A stretch of DNA of 51,026 nt from positions 1-51,026 of the forward strand of contig JAQUWT010000008.1 of NCBI GenBank assembly GCA_028692765.1, read 5' to 3'. The notes under the pieces are model-generated. The model searched no databases. It saw only the letters and a list, made by a program, of their open reading frames with translations, and had not been told where the DNA came from. A program made the translations under genes and the position numbers. Of this stretch, positions 15,546-24,990 are shown piece after piece; within the stretch, counting starts at the first letter, position 1, and every line of letters begins with the position of its first letter. The stretch is from Patescibacteria group bacterium (lineage in GTDB: Bacteria; Patescibacteriota; Patescibacteriia; Patescibacteriales; UBA12465).

Positions 15546-16994
15546 TTAACAATTGAATAATTCCCGGGTAGCGCAGCGGTAGCGCAGTTGGCTGTTAACC
15601 AATTGGTCGTGGGTTCGAATCCCACCCCGGGAGCCAGAGTTCAAATCGTGACGTTTAAAGAGGGCTGCAAAGCCTTCTTTTGCGTTAAAATTAGCTATTT
15701 CTTTGTTGTATATAGTGAGTTCGGAAAACACTTGTGTAGCTATTTCGTGCTTTTCGGTATCAAGTGCGTGTTCGTAGTAAACATTAGCCATTTTTACGAG
15801 TTCGGAAAAAGTTACGATATACTTTAACATTTCACCGGCAGCCTCCTTATGAGCGGCTGTTTTTTCGTCTATAAGTTCCAGTTCATCATTTAATCTTTTT
15901 TCATCCTTGCCAATTTCTTCAATCGTCATCGTGCCATTACGGAGTAAGCTGATTTTGTTTTTTGTAATATAATTCAAGTCTGCATAAATTCGTTTGCGCT
16001 CATTATTTAGATTATCCAATTCTTTTTCTCGTTTAGTAGAGATATTGTCCAACTCGAATTTGGCCCGTGCTTCAATTTCAATTTTTTCTTCATCAGTAAA
16101 ATGGATCAAACCTAAAATATCCCGGACCTTTTCGTGGATCAAGCTTTCATTTATATTTTTGTGATTGTTTTGACAGTTATCCAAACAACGAGATCGATAA
16201 TAATTTATCCCTTTCTTTTGATATGGAGAATATGATCTCCCACATTCGCATTTGATCAAATTACGGTAAGTAAAAAAATCTTTATCAACATAATGCACTC
16301 CCACGTTTTTTGATTTTAATACAGCTTGAACTTTATTAAATAAAGCAGTATCAATAAGGGCTTGATGGGTGCCGTCAATGTATTCACCAGTTTTTCGATT
16401 AACTTTTAACTTGCCGATATAAAATGGGTTAGTTAAGATATTTTCAATTGTTTTATTATTTACCGGACGGCTAACTTTTTTTATTTCATCTATTTCAACA
16501 CCATTTAACAATTCCTGTTTAGTTCGATTTCTTCTTGTTGGTTTAGTTGTTAAACCTTGCTTATTAGCCCATCTGGCTAATTGGAATAAGCTCCATTCTC
16601 CCGTGGCATAAAGTTGAAAAATCCTGACAATAATATAAGCTCTTTCTGGATCAATTGGTTTATTACCCGACCCTTCATCAAGATAGCCAATCGGGGCCAT
16701 ATAAATACATTTACCTTCGGATCTTAACTTTTCAGCCGCAGCTTTAACTTTTTCACTTATCACTCTTGAATAATGGGCCGAGAACATACCGTCTATGTCT
16801 CTATGTAGAGCTCCGGAGCTGCTTTTCTCATATCTCGCTTGAACGAATTGAATATCAGCACCTTTATCCATCAATTCCTTTATTATAAATCCATCCTGCT
16901 CATTACGACTGATCCTGTCCCAGCATAGGCAAATTAAGCCCTTAAACTCTTTATTTAAGAGCTTTTGGACCATAACTTGAAATTTGGGCCGTTC
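15546..16994 (-). pseudogene. Large serine recombinase, N-terminally truncated, reading antisense through tRNA-Asn
   Basis: Homology begins at ERPKFQVMVQKLLN, just downstream of an in-frame TGA (17004-17006), and the first ATG is at 16973. The N-terminal 60-70 residues with the catalytic serine are therefore missing, while the later DRISRNEQDG motif, the recombinase domain (IGYLDEGSGNKPIDPERAYI ... FYIGKLKVNRKTG), the zinc ribbon (IKCECGRSYSPYQKKG) and a coiled coil remain. The last roughly 30 residues (GGIRTHDQLVNSQLRYRC) are the antisense of the tRNA gene, so the native C-terminus was replaced at integration. Probably inactive remnant of the integrase that brought in the island. Confidence 0.85.
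15562..15636 (+). tRNA. tRNA-Asn (anticodon GTT), CCA encoded
   Basis: The acceptor stem is TCCCGGG (15562-15568) with CCCGGGA (15626-15632), discriminator G and an encoded CCA. The T arm is GTGGG-TTCGAAT-CCCAC and the anticodon loop is CTGTTAA, giving anticodon GTT. The D arm GCGC-AGCGGTA-GCGC is complete. The AT-rich accessory island begins immediately downstream, and an antisense recombinase frame runs through the whole tRNA, so this gene is the likely integration target. Confidence 0.96.
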
Positions 16995-17431
16995 AATCTT
17001 ATATCAAGATAGTATTGTCCCTTACCTTTTCTAAGCATTGTCTCGTCAGATTTGTTGCCGTCAATTGACACTGCCGGTATACCGCCGTTACTTTCAAGTG
17101 TAGTTCCTTCTTTCATAACATAAACCATACAAAGGGAGTAATCTCCGCCAGTGGTTTTATAAATAATTTTTTGTTGGCCACCTTGAAGATTAAAGGCCTT
17201 AGTTTGTTTTTCTGAGTTGGCAGTAATTTTAAAAACCGAAGTCCACACCTTTTCTTTTGGTTGTTCTGTCTGAACAGTCTCTTGTTGGTCATTGTTTGTG
17301 TTTGCTGTGTTGGGAGTGGATTTATTTTCTCCTCCCAGTGCATTGCCGATAATGATAATGGCAAAGATGATAATGATGACCGAGAGAATTTTGTGTTTCT
17401 TGGCCCATTCCGTGAGTTTGTTTTGGCTCAT
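16955..17431 (-). CDS. Membrane-anchored extracytoplasmic protein, probably 3'-truncated
   Basis: Starts MSQNKLTEWAKKHK, followed by one transmembrane helix (ILSVIIIIFAIIIIGNAL), a Ser/Thr/Asn-rich linker and a small beta-rich domain (VWTSVFKITANSEKQTKAF ... SLCMVYVMKEG). After GKGQYYLDI the last 14 residues (RLNGPNFKLWSKSS) are encoded by recombinase-derived DNA in another frame, so the original C-terminus appears lost at the same junction that truncated the recombinase. The frame is open further upstream, but that part lies inside a structured element, so I use the ATG at 17431. Function unknown. Confidence 0.65.
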   Translation of the reverse strand: MSQNKLTEWAKKHKILSVIIIIFAIIIIGNALGGENKSTPNTANTNNDQQETVQTEQPKEKVWTSVFKITANSEKQTKAFNLQGGQQKIIYKTTGGDYSLCMVYVMKEGTTLESNGGIPAVSIDGNKSDETMLRKGKGQYYLDIRLNGPNFKLWSKSS

Positions 17432-17463
17432 AGATTTTTTATTTAGTTTATAAAATATCAACT

Positions 17464-17619
17464 TGCCCAACAAAAAAGGGCAGTCAACCTGACTACCCAC
17501 TGTTAGCAATAGCACGAAGCTACCGTTTTGCGGAGGTCAACTGCCCATTTCTGGCCGTAAAACGGCAAGACTAAGCAGTCTTTTCATGCTTTTTATTGCT
17601 AACAAATTGTAGGTAGTCA
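17464..17619 (-). ncRNA. Structured, pseudoknot-forming element with terminator-like end
   Basis: Nested and crossing complementarity: 17490-17497 with 17612-17619 (8 bp) and 17501-17511 with 17594-17604 (11 bp, perfect); 17522-17533 with 17555-17566 (12 positions, one mismatch, one wobble); hairpin AAGACT/AGTCTT at 17567-17582; and 17478-17489 with 17535-17546 (12 positions, two G-U), which crosses the long helix and makes a pseudoknot. On the minus strand the last helix ends in a T run (TGCCCTTTTTTG), like an intrinsic terminator, and TGCCC can also pair with GGGCA (hairpin 17464-17482). It sits just upstream of the minus-strand membrane protein gene. A cis-regulatory leader or an independent small RNA are both possible; the plus strand cannot be excluded. 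Confidence 0.55.
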
Positions 17620-17727: not shown

Positions 17728-18891
17728 ATGGCGAAGATTGTTGAAACAAAATTAAAGCAAAAGGTTGTATCTATCCTTACTAAACAAGGCTATGTTGTTA
17801 ATAGTAAAGGTTTTGTTTTAAAAGATGATAGCAGAGAAGTAAAGAGAGACGCTCATGTTTTTGCAAAAGCTGAAAGAATAAGTAAAAGTGAGAAATTTAT
17901 TACCGATAACATCGATTTAATAAGTCAGTATATGGTTGACGGAAAGAATTTAGATATCGCAAAGATTGATCCTCAGATTATAGAGGTAAAAACTGGATCA
18001 AAGTATGAAAAGATTTTTCGTTGGTGGAATTTAGTGTGGTGGAGTCTTCCTTATGAAAGGGCTTATGGAAGACAAATGCGTTTTGTAATTTGGGATCGTT
18101 TTCATAAGGCCCCCATCGGCCTTATTGGTTTACAAAGCCCTATTTTGAGTTGGAGTATTAGAGATAGTTATCTTGGTATAACTAAAGAAAAAAGAGACTA
18201 TTGGGTTAATCAATCATTGAGTGCGCAGAGGTTGGGTGCTTTGCCGCCATATAATTACATTTTAGGAGGAAAGTTGATCGCATCTTTAATGACCGCTGCA
18301 GTTATAAGGAAAAAATTTGAAAATAAATATAAGGGTCAAAAAACTATAATAAAAAATAGAAAATTGCCATCAAAATTATTATTTATTACAACAACGGGAG
18401 CCTACGGGAAAAGTAGTGTTTATAATAGACTTAAATTTAATGATGACTATATTTCTAAGTTTATTGGTTATACCCATGGGAGTGGATCCTTTCATATTCC
18501 GAATAATATTTATGAAGATTTTTTAATATATTTAAAGGATAAAGATTATGATATAAAGAGAGGATACGGCGCTGGGCCATCAAGGAAGTTGCGTTTAATA
18601 AATCAAGCAATGGAGTGTTTAGGAATATCAAATGGCACCAACCATGGTATTAAAAGGGCTATATATTTATTTCCCTTGGCCAAGAATTTAAAATCGGTAA
18701 TATCAGATAATGAAAAACCAAAATGGTTTGATAGAAATATTAAAGATTTGACTTCATTTTGGCGGGAAAGATGGGCTATGCCAAGATCAGAAAAACACAA
18801 AGAATATCTCGGTTTTTGTGCGGATAAATTTATAAAAGATACTATAGATGAGATAGGGAAATATAAAAAATTACATAACAGTGCAAAGTAA
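17728..18891 (+). CDS. DUF4338 / DruA-like protein
   Basis: Recognisable DUF4338 pattern in order: RWWNLVWWSLPYERAYGRQM, FHKAPIGLIGLQSPI, YWVNQSLSAQRLGALPPYNY, then FITTTGAYGKSSVYNRLKF, FIGYTHGSGSFHIPNNIYED, GAGPSRKLRLI and HGIKRAIYLFPLAKN. DUF4338 is the domain of DruA in type I Druantia anti-phage systems, whose molecular role is not settled; nucleic-acid cleavage or binding is often suspected. The Druantia helicase DruE is not present in this window. At 387 residues it looks complete. AT-rich codon use differs from the core genes. The NurA-like gene begins 2 bases after its stop. Confidence 0.85.
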   Translation: MAKIVETKLKQKVVSILTKQGYVVNSKGFVLKDDSREVKRDAHVFAKAERISKSEKFITDNIDLISQYMVDGKNLDIAKIDPQIIEVKTGSKYEKIFRWWNLVWWSLPYERAYGRQMRFVIWDRFHKAPIGLIGLQSPILSWSIRDSYLGITKEKRDYWVNQSLSAQRLGALPPYNYILGGKLIASLMTAAVIRKKFENKYKGQKTIIKNRKLPSKLLFITTTGAYGKSSVYNRLKFNDDYISKFIGYTHGSGSFHIPNNIYEDFLIYLKDKDYDIKRGYGAGPSRKLRLINQAMECLGISNGTNHGIKRAIYLFPLAKNLKSVISDNEKPKWFDRNIKDLTSFWRERWAMPRSEKHKEYLGFCADKFIKDTIDEIGKYKKLHNSAK

Positions 18892-18893
18892 AT

Positions 18894-20096
18894 ATGGATC
18901 AGCAAAACAAAAATTCTAATTACGCTTTTTTGCCAGATGATTTGTTGATGAAAATGTTGGATAAAGTTCCTGATACCGTTGGAAAAATGAACGGTATGTT
19001 TGATGTCCAGGACGAACCAATAAAGAAAGGCATAGAGGAGTTAAAAAATAAGGGGCTGATAAACAAAATAACAAGCAAAGAACATACTACTTCCTTAATC
19101 GCTGTAGACGGGAGTAATATTGTAGAAAAAATGACAGGAACAGACATTTTGCTTGCAATGGGTGTCGGCGTAGAAGGATTAACTAATGGAGAAACTGTTG
19201 GATGGGAAGACAATAAAAATCAGTATTATCAATGGCAAACTGTTTTACCTCACGGAGATGCAAATGCGAGGTTAATTCAAGGAATAATGTTTCTAATGGA
19301 GTTGAGTGTATTAGCTCATGCAAGCCATGAAGTTAGAATAATGGACGGCAATCACATGACTCCTATCTTAAAAATAAATAGCATGTTAAGCGCCAAGGAT
19401 GAAAATGCTGGTCCTGAATACTGCTCTGCTTTAACGGAATTTTTAAAAGAAACATATAATAAAATAATTCCTGATATTCCAGATATCGTATCAGCTGCCT
19501 TTAGTAATGAAAATATTGTAGCTATGGTTAAATATAGTTCCTCTCGGGATATACTTGAAAGCCACCTAAAAGATCATAAGGATATTAGGGTTGATGATAA
19601 AACTTTTTTTTCTCTTGGCCTTGCCCAAGACGAATATACCAAGCCATTATCCGTTGGACAGAGTAAAGATGAAAATAGAATATGGGGTGATCTTCATATA
19701 AAATGTAATTTAGATGCCATAAAGGAAAAAGATGAGTTGAATAAGGAATTTAAAAAGGTGTTGGAAAAAATAAAGACCAAGGATTATAAAGGGAGGTCCA
19801 AAGAGTCGGAAATATATTTTACATATTATAAACCATATGATGATGGACCGGCTTACAGGATTGAAATAAAAAAAGGGATAGCAAATAATCTTCCTAAATT
19901 GGAAAAATATCTTTTAAGCATAAAAAACCAAATAGTTTTCCCAGAAATTAGAGAACCTTATCCTCAGTATTTAGTAGATTTGATGGCCAAGAGTATCGCC
20001 ATGGGTCTTTTTTCAATTCAAGAAGCCATTCGTTTGTCTCCTGATTTAAAAATTGATCGAGGCAAATTTAATTTATTGTTTAATTATAGAACATAA
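18894..20096 (+). CDS. NurA-like 5'-3' nuclease
   Basis: NurA family nucleases form toroids that dock on HerA hexamers and resect DNA ends. The hallmark acidic motifs are visible: LIAVDGSN (catalytic Asp near residue 71) and the second one in VRIMDGNHMTPIL near residue 150. C-terminal segments PQYLVDLMAKSIAMGLFSIQ are also in keeping with the family. At 400 residues it is within range. The gene is tightly placed between the DUF4338 gene (2-base gap) and the HerA-like gene (13-base gap). Assignment rests on motif pattern plus the HerA neighbour. Confidence 0.8.
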   Translation: MDQQNKNSNYAFLPDDLLMKMLDKVPDTVGKMNGMFDVQDEPIKKGIEELKNKGLINKITSKEHTTSLIAVDGSNIVEKMTGTDILLAMGVGVEGLTNGETVGWEDNKNQYYQWQTVLPHGDANARLIQGIMFLMELSVLAHASHEVRIMDGNHMTPILKINSMLSAKDENAGPEYCSALTEFLKETYNKIIPDIPDIVSAAFSNENIVAMVKYSSSRDILESHLKDHKDIRVDDKTFFSLGLAQDEYTKPLSVGQSKDENRIWGDLHIKCNLDAIKEKDELNKEFKKVLEKIKTKDYKGRSKESEIYFTYYKPYDDGPAYRIEIKKGIANNLPKLEKYLLSIKNQIVFPEIREPYPQYLVDLMAKSIAMGLFSIQEAIRLSPDLKIDRGKFNLLFNYRT

Positions 20097-20109
20097 TTTT
20101 TATAAAAAT

Positions 20110-21906
20110 ATGTCAGATAAAATAAATTTTTCAAAAGAAATAATTGATGTAATTGCTAAACAGGATTCAACTATTGGTATTACTGGATCGCCAAGTACAA
20201 CTCTTGATATTGAAATTGATATTACGGAGGATAAAAAAACTGAAAGGGCTTTAGGGCAGATGGTTTTTGTTATGTTGAATGAGGACGGTAAAGATGTTTT
20301 AGTTATCGGACAAATAATATCCGTTGAAACTCAAAACAGATGGCACGAAGACCCATCATTTAAAGGTGTTATAAAAAGACATGGTAAGCTGCCGCATTTA
20401 AGCGGAACGGCAGATAATAGAATAGCAACAATTAGCGTACAGGCATGTTATGCGCTTGATGCCAATGAACCCATGGGTCATATTTTAGGAACATCGCCGT
20501 CTACAGGTGAAAATGTAAAAAAAATGAACAATGATGTTATGAAGGCTTTAGTAAAGAAACACGAAAAACATATAACTTATATGGGGAAAGTTTACGGAAC
20601 TGATGTTGATTTACCTTTATGGTTTAAACATTTTGACAAAACTAATAACGATGAGCTCGGCGCTAATGATGCGTACCATATAGGGGTGTTTGGTAAAACA
20701 GGCTCGGGTAAAACAGTGACAGCAAGTTATATGTTACTTGGATATACAAAAAATAAAAATAATTTGAGTGTCTTAGTTCTTGATCCCCAGGGGCAATTTT
20801 ATAATGACAAAGATTTATTGCCACCAAGAGGCCAAAAATTTGAGGATAGGGTAAAAGCAAGTGGAATGAACTTTAATAAATATGAAATAACAAAAGATGT
20901 ATATTTGCCAGGTGATAAATATGAGCTGTTTGGTGAATTATTGCAAAATAATAAATTTTTAGAGGAGGCGTTTAGACCGTTATATACAGAGGATAAAATT
21001 GAGGCTGCTAAGAATGTTATAGTTGATTATCTAAGAGGGAGATCAAATAAGCCCGGATTTAATTTAGGCAGCATAACGGACAGTAAAAAGTTATTAGAAG
21101 AAATGTTAAAAAGATTTTTAGAGGTGAAAGATGATGAGGAGAAAAAAATCGGTTTTTCAAAATATGTATATGGAATATTTGGAACTAAGGAGACAAGAAC
21201 GAGATTGCAATCAAGAATCAAATCTATTAGTGAAAATATAGATAGGCAAACCGGTATTTTGTCTAAATGGAATAATGCCTTGTACTTGTTTACACAAAAG
21301 AAAGAAGATAATACTAACAAGGTGTCGGTAGATGATATTGTGGACAAGATAGTAAACAATAATGGTAATTTTGTGGTTCTTGATTTAAGTCCCAAAAAAG
21401 GAGAAATAGAGAATGAAAATTTGCAGGCTTTATTTGTTAGTATAATTGAGTCAAAAATTGTTGAGGTTGGGGCGGATTTGTTTGCAAAGGGCGAGAAGGC
21501 AAATTGTTTGATAGTTTTAGACGAAGCGCATAGATTTATTTCCAAAGAGTCATCTGATCCAAGAATTAAGGAATTTACTAAGGAAATAATCGGCTCGGTT
21601 AGAACGACCAGAAAATATGGCATTGGTTATATGTTTATTACACAAACAATAGAGTCTTTAGATAATGAAATTTTAAATCAAATGAGAATATTTTCATTTG
21701 GCTATGGTTTGACTTCGGGATCTGAATTAAGAAAAGTTAGCGAAGTTATAAACAATAAATCAGCTGTTCAGCTTTATAAATCATTTATTGATCCAAGCAG
21801 TAATAACAGATTTCCTTTTATGTTCTTTGGTCCAATATCTCCTTTGTCGTTTACAGGATCACCTTTGTTTATGGAGGTTTACGGGGATATTTCAATGTTT
21901 AGTTAA
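20110..21906 (+). CDS. HerA-like FtsK/HerA-clade ATPase
   Basis: A 598-residue AAA+/RecA-like motor that forms hexamers and pumps DNA. It has an N-terminal HAS-type beta barrel (residues about 15-110, AVIGQIISVET-like strands), Walker A FGKTGSGKTVTAS near residue 195, Walker B CLIVLDEAHRFI near residue 470, a sensor/arginine-finger region SVRTTRKYGIGYMFITQT and a C-terminal brace. The frame is open upstream to 20053 but that part overlaps the NurA gene; the ATG at 20110 gives a clean 13-base gap. With NurA it would make a DNA-end-processing complex. Confidence 0.9.
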   Translation: MSDKINFSKEIIDVIAKQDSTIGITGSPSTTLDIEIDITEDKKTERALGQMVFVMLNEDGKDVLVIGQIISVETQNRWHEDPSFKGVIKRHGKLPHLSGTADNRIATISVQACYALDANEPMGHILGTSPSTGENVKKMNNDVMKALVKKHEKHITYMGKVYGTDVDLPLWFKHFDKTNNDELGANDAYHIGVFGKTGSGKTVTASYMLLGYTKNKNNLSVLVLDPQGQFYNDKDLLPPRGQKFEDRVKASGMNFNKYEITKDVYLPGDKYELFGELLQNNKFLEEAFRPLYTEDKIEAAKNVIVDYLRGRSNKPGFNLGSITDSKKLLEEMLKRFLEVKDDEEKKIGFSKYVYGIFGTKETRTRLQSRIKSISENIDRQTGILSKWNNALYLFTQKKEDNTNKVSVDDIVDKIVNNNGNFVVLDLSPKKGEIENENLQALFVSIIESKIVEVGADLFAKGEKANCLIVLDEAHRFISKESSDPRIKEFTKEIIGSVRTTRKYGIGYMFITQTIESLDNEILNQMRIFSFGYGLTSGSELRKVSEVINNKSAVQLYKSFIDPSSNNRFPFMFFGPISPLSFTGSPLFMEVYGDISMFS

Positions 21907-21922: not shown

Positions 21923-22297
21923 ATGAAAAGAGTTTTTATTAGTTTCGCAATCGAAGATAAATATGCCAGAGATCATTTGGCATATCAGGCAAACAATGCA
22001 AAGGTGCCTTTTGAATTTGTTGATATGTCAGTTAAAGAGCCTTGGGATAGTTCCTGGAAAACAAGATGTAGAGAAAGAATTAAGCAGTGTGATGGTGTGA
22101 TTGCTCTGTTAAGTAAAAAAACGAGATTGGCCGATGGCGCTAAATGGGAGATGAAGTGTGCCGTTGAAGAAGGTGTTCCGATAATTGGCGTTCATATTCA
22201 CTCTGATGACAAAGGGCAAATACCTTCTGAACTTGAAGGTAAACGTGTAATTGAGTGGACTTGGGACGGGATAAAGAATTTTATTGATAGATTATAA
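21923..22297 (+). CDS. TIR-like (ThsB / DUF1863-type) protein
   Basis: A stand-alone 124-residue TIR-fold protein. The start KRVFISFAIEDKYARDHLA, the central KTRCRERIKQCDGVIALLSK and KWEMKCAVEEGVPIIGVHI match the ThsB-like TIR proteins that sense phage and make NAD-derived signals in Thoeris systems. Glu76 in AKWEMK is at the position expected for the catalytic glutamate. It begins 16 bases after the HerA gene and is followed after one base by a membrane protein gene, which suggests a sensor-effector pair. No ThsA-type SIR2-SLOG gene is present. Confidence 0.82.
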   Translation: MKRVFISFAIEDKYARDHLAYQANNAKVPFEFVDMSVKEPWDSSWKTRCRERIKQCDGVIALLSKKTRLADGAKWEMKCAVEEGVPIIGVHIHSDDKGQIPSELEGKRVIEWTWDGIKNFIDRL

Positions 22298-22298
22298 T

Positions 22299-22796
22299 AT
22301 GAGCCATAAAGAGTTATTTCAAATTGATAAAACCGTCTACGGCGATAATTACAACGAACACTTGTTGGAGCAGTATAAGCTTTATGTTGAAGGAATAGAA
22401 AAGATAAGCGATCGTCGCCATAATGCAAATAATTATTTTATAACAGTTAACACTGCCATCATAACTCTTATTGGATTATCTTTTAATGTAGATTTTTTAA
22501 AAGATAATAGTTGGATTAGGATTGTAATTGCTTTACTGGGTATTATTATTAGTGTTATATTTTGGTATTTAATTAGAGCTTATAAGCAGTTAAATACTGG
22601 AAAATTTACTGTTATACATAAAATAGAAGAAAGAATGCCATTGTCTCTTTATTCTTACGAATGGGATGTTTTGGGAAACGGAAAGGATAATGAAAAATAC
22701 TATCCATTTTCTCACATAGAACTTATTATCCCTCGGGTGTTTGGAATTTTGTATTTTATATTAGGTATTTTGTTTTTGTTGGGTTGTTTGAAATAA
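22299..22796 (+). CDS. Small membrane protein, likely partner/effector of the TIR protein
   Basis: 165 residues with an N-terminal soluble helix (LLEQYKLYVEGIEKISDRRH), two adjacent transmembrane helices (ANNYFITVNTAIITLIGLSF; IVIALLGIIISVIFWYLI), a cytosolic segment with KFTVIHKIEERMP, and a third helix at the C-terminus. The pattern resembles the RipA-like octameric membrane proteins, but I am not certain of that family. The ATG at 22299, one base after the TIR stop, is preferred over a start 15 bases upstream. By position it is a candidate for a membrane-disrupting effector. It is the last gene of the operon. Confidence 0.72.
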   Translation: MSHKELFQIDKTVYGDNYNEHLLEQYKLYVEGIEKISDRRHNANNYFITVNTAIITLIGLSFNVDFLKDNSWIRIVIALLGIIISVIFWYLIRAYKQLNTGKFTVIHKIEERMPLSLYSYEWDVLGNGKDNEKYYPFSHIELIIPRVFGILYFILGILFLLGCLK

Positions 22797-24170: not shown

Positions 24171-24270
24171 AATATCGAGTAGAGTGGCGTGGTAAATTAT
24201 GAATCACGATTGTTACCTTTCCCCGATTATTTCGTTTATTATTATATTATAAATTTATTTTATTAATAAT

Positions 24271-24990
24271 ATGGAAAAGCATCCTCGTTTTGTGTTGTTG
24301 GGTTTGATTTTGGGCCTGAGCTTGATTGCCGCCGCCGCGGTGGTTTCCGGTTCTTTGCTGGAAATCAGGAAGTTAGATAATGTCGTGTCCGTTTCCGGTT
24401 CCGCTAAGCAGGCGGTGACGGCTGATTCAGCTCGCTGGACCGGTAATTTTTCCAGAACAGCAACGGTGGAACGGTTGAAGGAGAGTTATGTGCGGATGAA
24501 GGCCGATGAAAAAGCGGTCAGTGATTTTTTGCTGGCTCAAGGTTTTCAGGGGAAATTTGAGATTTCTCCGGTATTTATGAATGAAATTTGGAAAAATGAC
24601 GGCAATGCCCCCAAGGAATATAATTTGATTCAGAATATTGAGATTAAATCCGATGACGTCAACAAGATGAAAGAGCTGGCCAAAAACAGCGATAAGCTGG
24701 CGGAGCAGGGGATTATCTTTTCCGCCAATCCCGTGGAATACTATTACAGCAAATTACCGGAAATACGCGTTTCTTTATTGCCGGAGGCAATTAAAGACGC
24801 CAAGAATAGAGCGGAAGCGATTGCTTTAAGCAGCGGTAAAAAGGTGGATGTGGTTAAATCGGTGAGTATGGGGGTGGTGCAGGTGATGCCGGTGGGAGCG
24901 GTGGAAATTTCCGACTACGGCTCCTATGATACTTCCGGAATTGAAAAGGAAGTGATGGTGACAGTCAAAGCTTCTTTTGGATTAAAATAA
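24271..24990 (+). CDS. SIMPL domain-containing protein (DUF541)
   Basis: 239 residues with an N-terminal signal anchor (FVLLGLILGLSLIAAAAVVSG) and the SIMPL domain starting VVSVSGSAKQAVTADSARW. SIMPL/DUF541 proteins form oligomeric periplasmic or surface assemblies of uncertain role. Host-like GC and codon use mark the end of the accessory island. A second SIMPL gene lies at 33089-33829; the two are only distantly similar. Followed by a terminator, so monocistronic. Confidence 0.85.
   Translation: MEKHPRFVLLGLILGLSLIAAAAVVSGSLLEIRKLDNVVSVSGSAKQAVTADSARWTGNFSRTATVERLKESYVRMKADEKAVSDFLLAQGFQGKFEISPVFMNEIWKNDGNAPKEYNLIQNIEIKSDDVNKMKELAKNSDKLAEQGIIFSANPVEYYYSKLPEIRVSLLPEAIKDAKNRAEAIALSSGKKVDVVKSVSMGVVQVMPVGAVEISDYGSYDTSGIEKEVMVTVKASFGLK

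Follow-up and report, generated by a model that had tools for sequence, protein, structure and literature searches.

What do a DruA-family protein, a NurA-like nuclease and a HerA-like ATPase do together in the genome of a Patescibacteria group bacterium? The question is raised by a stretch of 51,026 nucleotides (the window; contig JAQUWT010000008.1 of assembly GCA_028692765.1), which belongs to an 880 kb genome that is 99% complete. A first-pass annotation, made from the letters of the window, had described three closely spaced plus-strand genes for DruA (DUF4338), NurA and HerA as a candidate undescribed defence module within an integrated island, with NurA-HerA in place of the large helicase DruE of type I Druantia. 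Open reading frame (ORF) positions bore out its coordinates, strand and gaps of 2 and 13 bases, and profile searches, all above the Pfam cut-off, its three family assignments (Table 1). The trio stands as described, but the three-gene run was incomplete, as genes for a TIR protein and an 8xMP membrane protein follow on the same strand after gaps of 16 bases and 1 base and had been overlooked; all five proteins pass the curated Pfam cut-offs. On the basis of genomic context, we consider it fairly probable that DruA, NurA and HerA form one putative anti-phage (or anti-plasmid) module in which the HerA motor feeds NurA, and DruA serves to recognise the target or to license the attack.

Beyond the window, the trio is present in ten loci, one of which ends at a contig edge before HerA. 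The genes are tightly spaced or overlapping across these loci, which are spread over the host's phylum, the Alphaproteobacteria, the Gammaproteobacteria, the Bacteroidota and the Poribacteria, and they run either DruA-NurA-HerA (order A) or NurA-HerA-DruA (order B). In an even sample of 287 genomes across the host's phylum, DruA exceeded the cut-off in two, and a NurA gene adjoined by HerA was present in the same two, with the genes side by side in both; this coincidence has a chance of 2.4e-5 if the genes are independent. The second of these genomes (G027, Gracilibacteria) encodes NurA-HerA-DruA, and genes for an XhoI-type restriction enzyme and a methylase come next. PF09376 matches in two further genomes of the phylum (G050 and G055) were weak, fell in unrelated ORFs with neither HerA nor DruA, and were discarded. 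Scanning GTDB genome contigs with the DruAs of the window and G027 recovered DruA-NurA-HerA in an alphaproteobacterial metagenome-assembled genome (MAG), with proteins 59, 64 and 64% identical to those of the window, DruA-NurA followed by the contig end in a gammaproteobacterial MAG, and NurA-HerA-DruA in one Bacteroidetes and one Poribacteria MAG; another locus begins inside DruA at a contig end and was uninformative. Several trios have restriction-modification or other defence-type neighbours (GmrSD_N with an Eco57I-type methylase, type III restriction-modification genes, a C-5 methylase). Viral contigs, scanned with narrow NurA, HerA and DruA patterns of both orders, yielded no relatives and so nothing to suggest that viruses carry copies. 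That the genes are chance neighbours is ruled out by their recurrence in independent loci and in permuted orders, and the adjacency of DUF4338 and NurA-HerA genes is conserved in Patescibacteria and in other phyla, a pattern that the first-pass annotation had made a condition of its reading.

We also sampled DruA without regard to context, searching PF14236 in 190 genomes from the class of the alphaproteobacterial match, 229 from the class of the gammaproteobacterial match, 247 from the phylum of the Bacteroidetes match and 192 same-class genomes. Nine loci carried a full-length DruA (over 200 bits; genomes serving as search centres were excluded and G027 was counted in). NurA-HerA accompanied DruA in five (G027, G521, G659, G662 and G696, of which G521, G659 and G662 hold complete gammaproteobacterial trios), and canonical Druantia I with DruB-E in three (G428, G468 and G634), leaving one with neither. 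We conclude that in this small sample DruA adjoins NurA-HerA at least as often as it sits in Druantia I. The remaining locus (G383, of the alphaproteobacterial class; L065 9211-10404) encodes a Druantia I-like DruA, with a kinase/ORC-CDC6-like gene nearby on the opposite strand. DUF4338 matches in the multi-copy genomes G355, G675 and G922 cover part of the profile only and were excluded; several such matches in each genome suggest a repeated, perhaps transposon-linked DUF4338 subfamily.

In a maximum-likelihood tree of 18 DruAs, the order-A proteins (that of the window and five others) formed one group and the order-B proteins another, each with 100/100 support. G696 also has its DruA ahead of NurA-HerA; this protein grouped with the DruAs of Druantia I (98/96), on a long branch whose exact place is unsure. 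These groupings point to three DruA lineages associated with NurA-HerA in two gene orders. Between the two orders, HerA is only 16-19% identical, and order-A NurA gave no significant match in profile comparison with order-B NurA or with two annotated NurAs, so that the NurAs of the two orders appear very distant; with 29-36% identity, DruA is the better conserved member. Judged by these comparisons, the motor-nuclease pair would be either fast-evolving or acquired more than once.

The strongest sign that the three genes are one functional unit is the presence of a distant, permuted trio at the same hotspot in a sister species. In a genome of the same genus (G1129, locus L090), rpoD and tRNA-Asn lie as in the window and an order-B trio follows downstream; its closest counterparts are the versions from Gracilibacteria and Bacteroidetes rather than that of the window. 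Two other loci of the genus (L091 and L092) have other genes at this position, including in L092 a Schlafen-type helicase and an AAA ATPase. In this genus, the rpoD/tRNA-Asn site appears to be a hotspot whose content can be exchanged (L090 2832-10252, an RNase H-domain protein and the order-B trio; L092 5393-12153).

The trio resembles several known systems without coinciding with any of those compared. Its DruA belongs to the same full-length family as that of Druantia type I, to which it is about 30% identical, but the run has NurA-HerA and no DruB, DruC, DruD or YprA-type helicase DruE. Since the same comparison readily detects DruB-E in real Druantia I loci, the trio is not a member of that type. 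Druantia type IV as defined in PADLOC (DruE, DruF and DruL) is likewise distinct (PMC8565338). In the helicase of Druantia I, the nuclease domain has been called inactivated (PMC12458937), and therefore in both settings DruA adjoins a DNA motor that would depend on a separate protein for cutting. HerA-DUF4297 and Sir2-HerA also couple a HerA-class motor ring to an effector enzyme, and the window HerA is similar in sequence to the HerA central-domain protein 8wiv; in the window, however, the effector would be NurA, DruA is present and the run has no DUF4297 or SIR2. That HerA rings drive effector nucleases is established experimentally for HerA-DUF4297, which protects E. coli against phage lambda and requires both activities (PMC11291478). 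TdpA, of the phosphorothioate-linked TdpAB system, is with 8wiv and HerA 4d2i one of three solved relatives of the window HerA found by sequence, but we recognised no modification gene in the window run. The DruA and HerA models of PADLOC-DB v2 matched, and none of its profiles matched the NurA of the window or the other NurAs tested, so these profiles cover the architecture only in part. We found no paper containing both NurA and Druantia, in a search that did not cover subscription papers and further preprints, so that an earlier description is possible. The trio thus apparently combines known families into an undescribed unit.

Both enzymes of the motor-nuclease pair were detected by their family profiles and retain intact active-site motifs, including those read in the first-pass annotation. 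NurA carries AVDGSN (D72) and IMDGNH (D151), and D72, E136, D151 and K213 are invariant across four divergent NurAs; by motif pattern, D72, E136 and D151 are its candidate catalytic acids. HerA has a Walker A motif, GKTGSGKT (K201), and a Walker B motif, LIVLDEAH, within LDEAHRF. A NurA domain with conserved acidic residues thus adjoins a HerA with Walker A and B motifs, as in a NurA-HerA nuclease-translocase. No solved NurA structure matched the window NurA by sequence. Pairs akin to that of the window, with no adjoining DruA, are present on Rhizobium, Euzebya and Natribaculum plasmids (L003 6860-9893, L004 6730-9845 and L005 7902-10667); the Rhizobium pair is followed by a 678-aa ORF.

For DruA, an AlphaFold2 model of moderate confidence (mean predicted local distance difference test (pLDDT) score 69.6, predicted template-modelling score 0.72) gave a predicted GNAT-like core at about residues 77-318. 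Foldseek returned no match below E 0.001 for this model, and its weak top matches were nearly all GNAT-type acyltransferases. VIA-align gave Z scores of 9.0-9.8 over about 134-190 residues, and its entries, among the matches listed, were GNAT-fold acyltransferases or assemblies containing such a domain. The core of DruA is thus predicted to have a GNAT fold, in agreement with a passage of PMC10853773 that calls DUF4338 a GNAT-like domain and describes it as fused to some DndF proteins. A GA(L/I/V)PPY...LGGKL motif is common to 15 of 17 DruAs; acyl-CoA binding by DruA is putative.

In the module that we favour, HerA would assemble into a hexameric ring and pull on double-stranded DNA, while NurA, docked on this ring, would degrade the DNA fed through it, as in the known NurA-HerA complex. 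DruA would recognise foreign DNA or its replication intermediates, or modify a target, and so license the motor and nuclease. This is the least certain step, and it is the part that the trio would share with Druantia I, whose DruE would have its functional replacement in NurA-HerA. With the further trios recovered and canonical Druantia I detected in the same samples, the first-pass interpretation is supported overall. Several points weigh against the favoured module. To our knowledge, no phenotype is known for any member, and we know of no biochemical role for DruA, even in Druantia I. NurA-HerA also acts in DNA repair. Two trios (L019 and L072) have no defence genes recognised alongside. Because structure prediction of NurA gave no usable confidence (pLDDT 32), its assignment draws on a modest profile score and the conserved acids. 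More tentatively, and at somewhat less than even chances, DruA may serve as a shared subunit for recognition or modification that bacteria have joined to various DNA motors (DruE and at least two deeply separate NurA-HerA lineages); this would make a new defence class no less frequent than Druantia I in the sampled lineages, possibly with GNAT chemistry on DNA. If the trio is defensive, it would represent a defence type only partly covered by the PADLOC models examined. DruA would then be a portable partner of DNA motors, and the three-gene form would allow its function to be studied in the absence of DruE, which is very large. The distantly related versions that sister species carry at a single hotspot show which of the parts can be exchanged in evolution.

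The GNAT-like core also allows readings in which DruA is itself an enzyme. Phage Mu Mom, a DNA-modifying enzyme, belongs to the GNAT superfamily, and a Mom-like DruA could mark host DNA bases while NurA-HerA destroys unmarked DNA, in the manner of restriction-modification. The predicted fold, the DndF fusions and trios that have no methylase of their own fit this arrangement, but no DNA modification has been measured, the DruA of Druantia I is not known to modify DNA, and Mom is absent from the structural matches listed, although this excludes nothing; we regard it as unlikely. Alternatively, DruA might be an acyltransferase toxin that becomes active when a phage is sensed by, or disturbs, NurA-HerA, causing abortive infection. 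The weak Foldseek matches include the tRNA-acetylating toxins TacT and AtaT2, but this resemblance is generic to the fold, no antitoxin-like gene is present and DruA is much larger than toxins of the TacT/AtaT type, which makes this the least probable of the explanations considered.

A different objection is that the trio could be a mobile DNA-repair or end-processing cassette, with DruA as a regulator of NurA-HerA resection and any defence incidental. The same two enzyme families are encoded by adjoining genes in the NurA-HerA DNA-end resection complex, a passage of PMC9960219 describes resection of DNA ends by bacterial NurA-HerA, and plasmids carry NurA and/or HerA genes without DruA, some adjoining genes for an SMC-type ATPase and a metallophosphoesterase. 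The trio differs in being tied to DruA and to mobile islands, and we recognised neither of those two genes beside it; among the genes examined next to the trio in the window and its relatives, a set that left out some window ORFs and the remainder of the genome, there was no Mre11/Rad50. The patchy distribution, the restriction-modification genes alongside several loci and the different versions at the hotspot of sister species also speak against a repair cassette, which we consider quite unlikely. It is more doubtful still that all five genes act as a single system in which a DruA-NurA-HerA sensor would trigger TIR/8xMP as a suicide effector, as their arrangement on one strand, with no gap above 16 bases, might suggest. 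No other trio examined has TIR/8xMP behind it, and TIR and 8xMP lie side by side on Polaromonas and Synechococcus plasmids without DruA, NurA or HerA. For these reasons we interpret TIR/8xMP as probably a separate, portable pair, a Thoeris-like candidate with a membrane effector, which would accompany the trio in the tRNA-Asn-linked island. Its TIR gene matches ThsB_TIR, and its nearest homologues on plasmids (52% identity) lie ahead of caspase genes in Agrobacterium and Enterococcus, an arrangement that we take to resemble type IV Thoeris. In contrast to Thoeris, the gene adjoining TIR encodes 8xMP and not ThsA, TM-macro or a caspase.

Table 1. Features of the island in the window and, in the last three lines, the order-B trio of the same-genus locus L090 (G1129; positions in L090).
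Feature	Position	Strand	Length	Basis
DruA / DUF4338 protein	17728..18891	+	387 aa	PF14236 218 bits (cut-off 27), E 1.7e-64; PADLOC DruA 304 bits
NurA-family nuclease	18894..20096	+	400 aa	PF09376 29.5 bits (cut-off 21), E 6.5e-7
HerA-like hexameric translocase ATPase (HerA/DUF87)	20110..21906 (ATG start)	+	598 aa	PF01935 HerA central domain 51.5 bits (cut-off 23.2), E 1.9e-13
ThsB-like TIR protein	21923..22297	+	124 aa	PF08937 42.1 bits (cut-off 21.2), E 1.2e-10
8xMP octameric membrane protein; candidate effector of TIR gene	22299..22796	+		PF24838 E 3.1e-41
tRNA-Asn(GTT), left edge of island	15562..15636	+		ARAGORN; Rfam tRNA
Large serine recombinase, N-terminus missing	15546..16973	-		PF07508; PF00239 from profile position 56 only
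Small predicted membrane protein within island	16955..17515	-		No Pfam match above cut-off
NurA, L090	6104-7339
HerA, L090	7365-9035
DruA, L090	9038-10252

The description of the region as an integrated island agrees with its low GC content (mostly 0.31-0.38 vs 0.43-0.49 on the left flank), the serine recombinase at tRNA-Asn and the differing content of the site in same-genus genomes. The 3′ end of the recombinase gene overlaps tRNA-Asn, and the encoded protein is probably inactive, because its N-terminal part is missing while a relative in G1130 reads further upstream. The right flank is common to the window and G1133: the SIMPL gene (24271-24990) has 86% protein identity, and the DNA match starts at 24265. 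A search of the window for an att repeat bordering the island on the right found none. The tRNA-Asn gene is uninterrupted in the window, G1000 and G1130, and a serine recombinase lies beside two of these three intron-less copies (window and G1130). In four same-genus genomes (L090, L092, L093 and L094), inserts containing group I introns (Rfam 80-89 bits) interrupt tRNA-Asn in its anticodon region.

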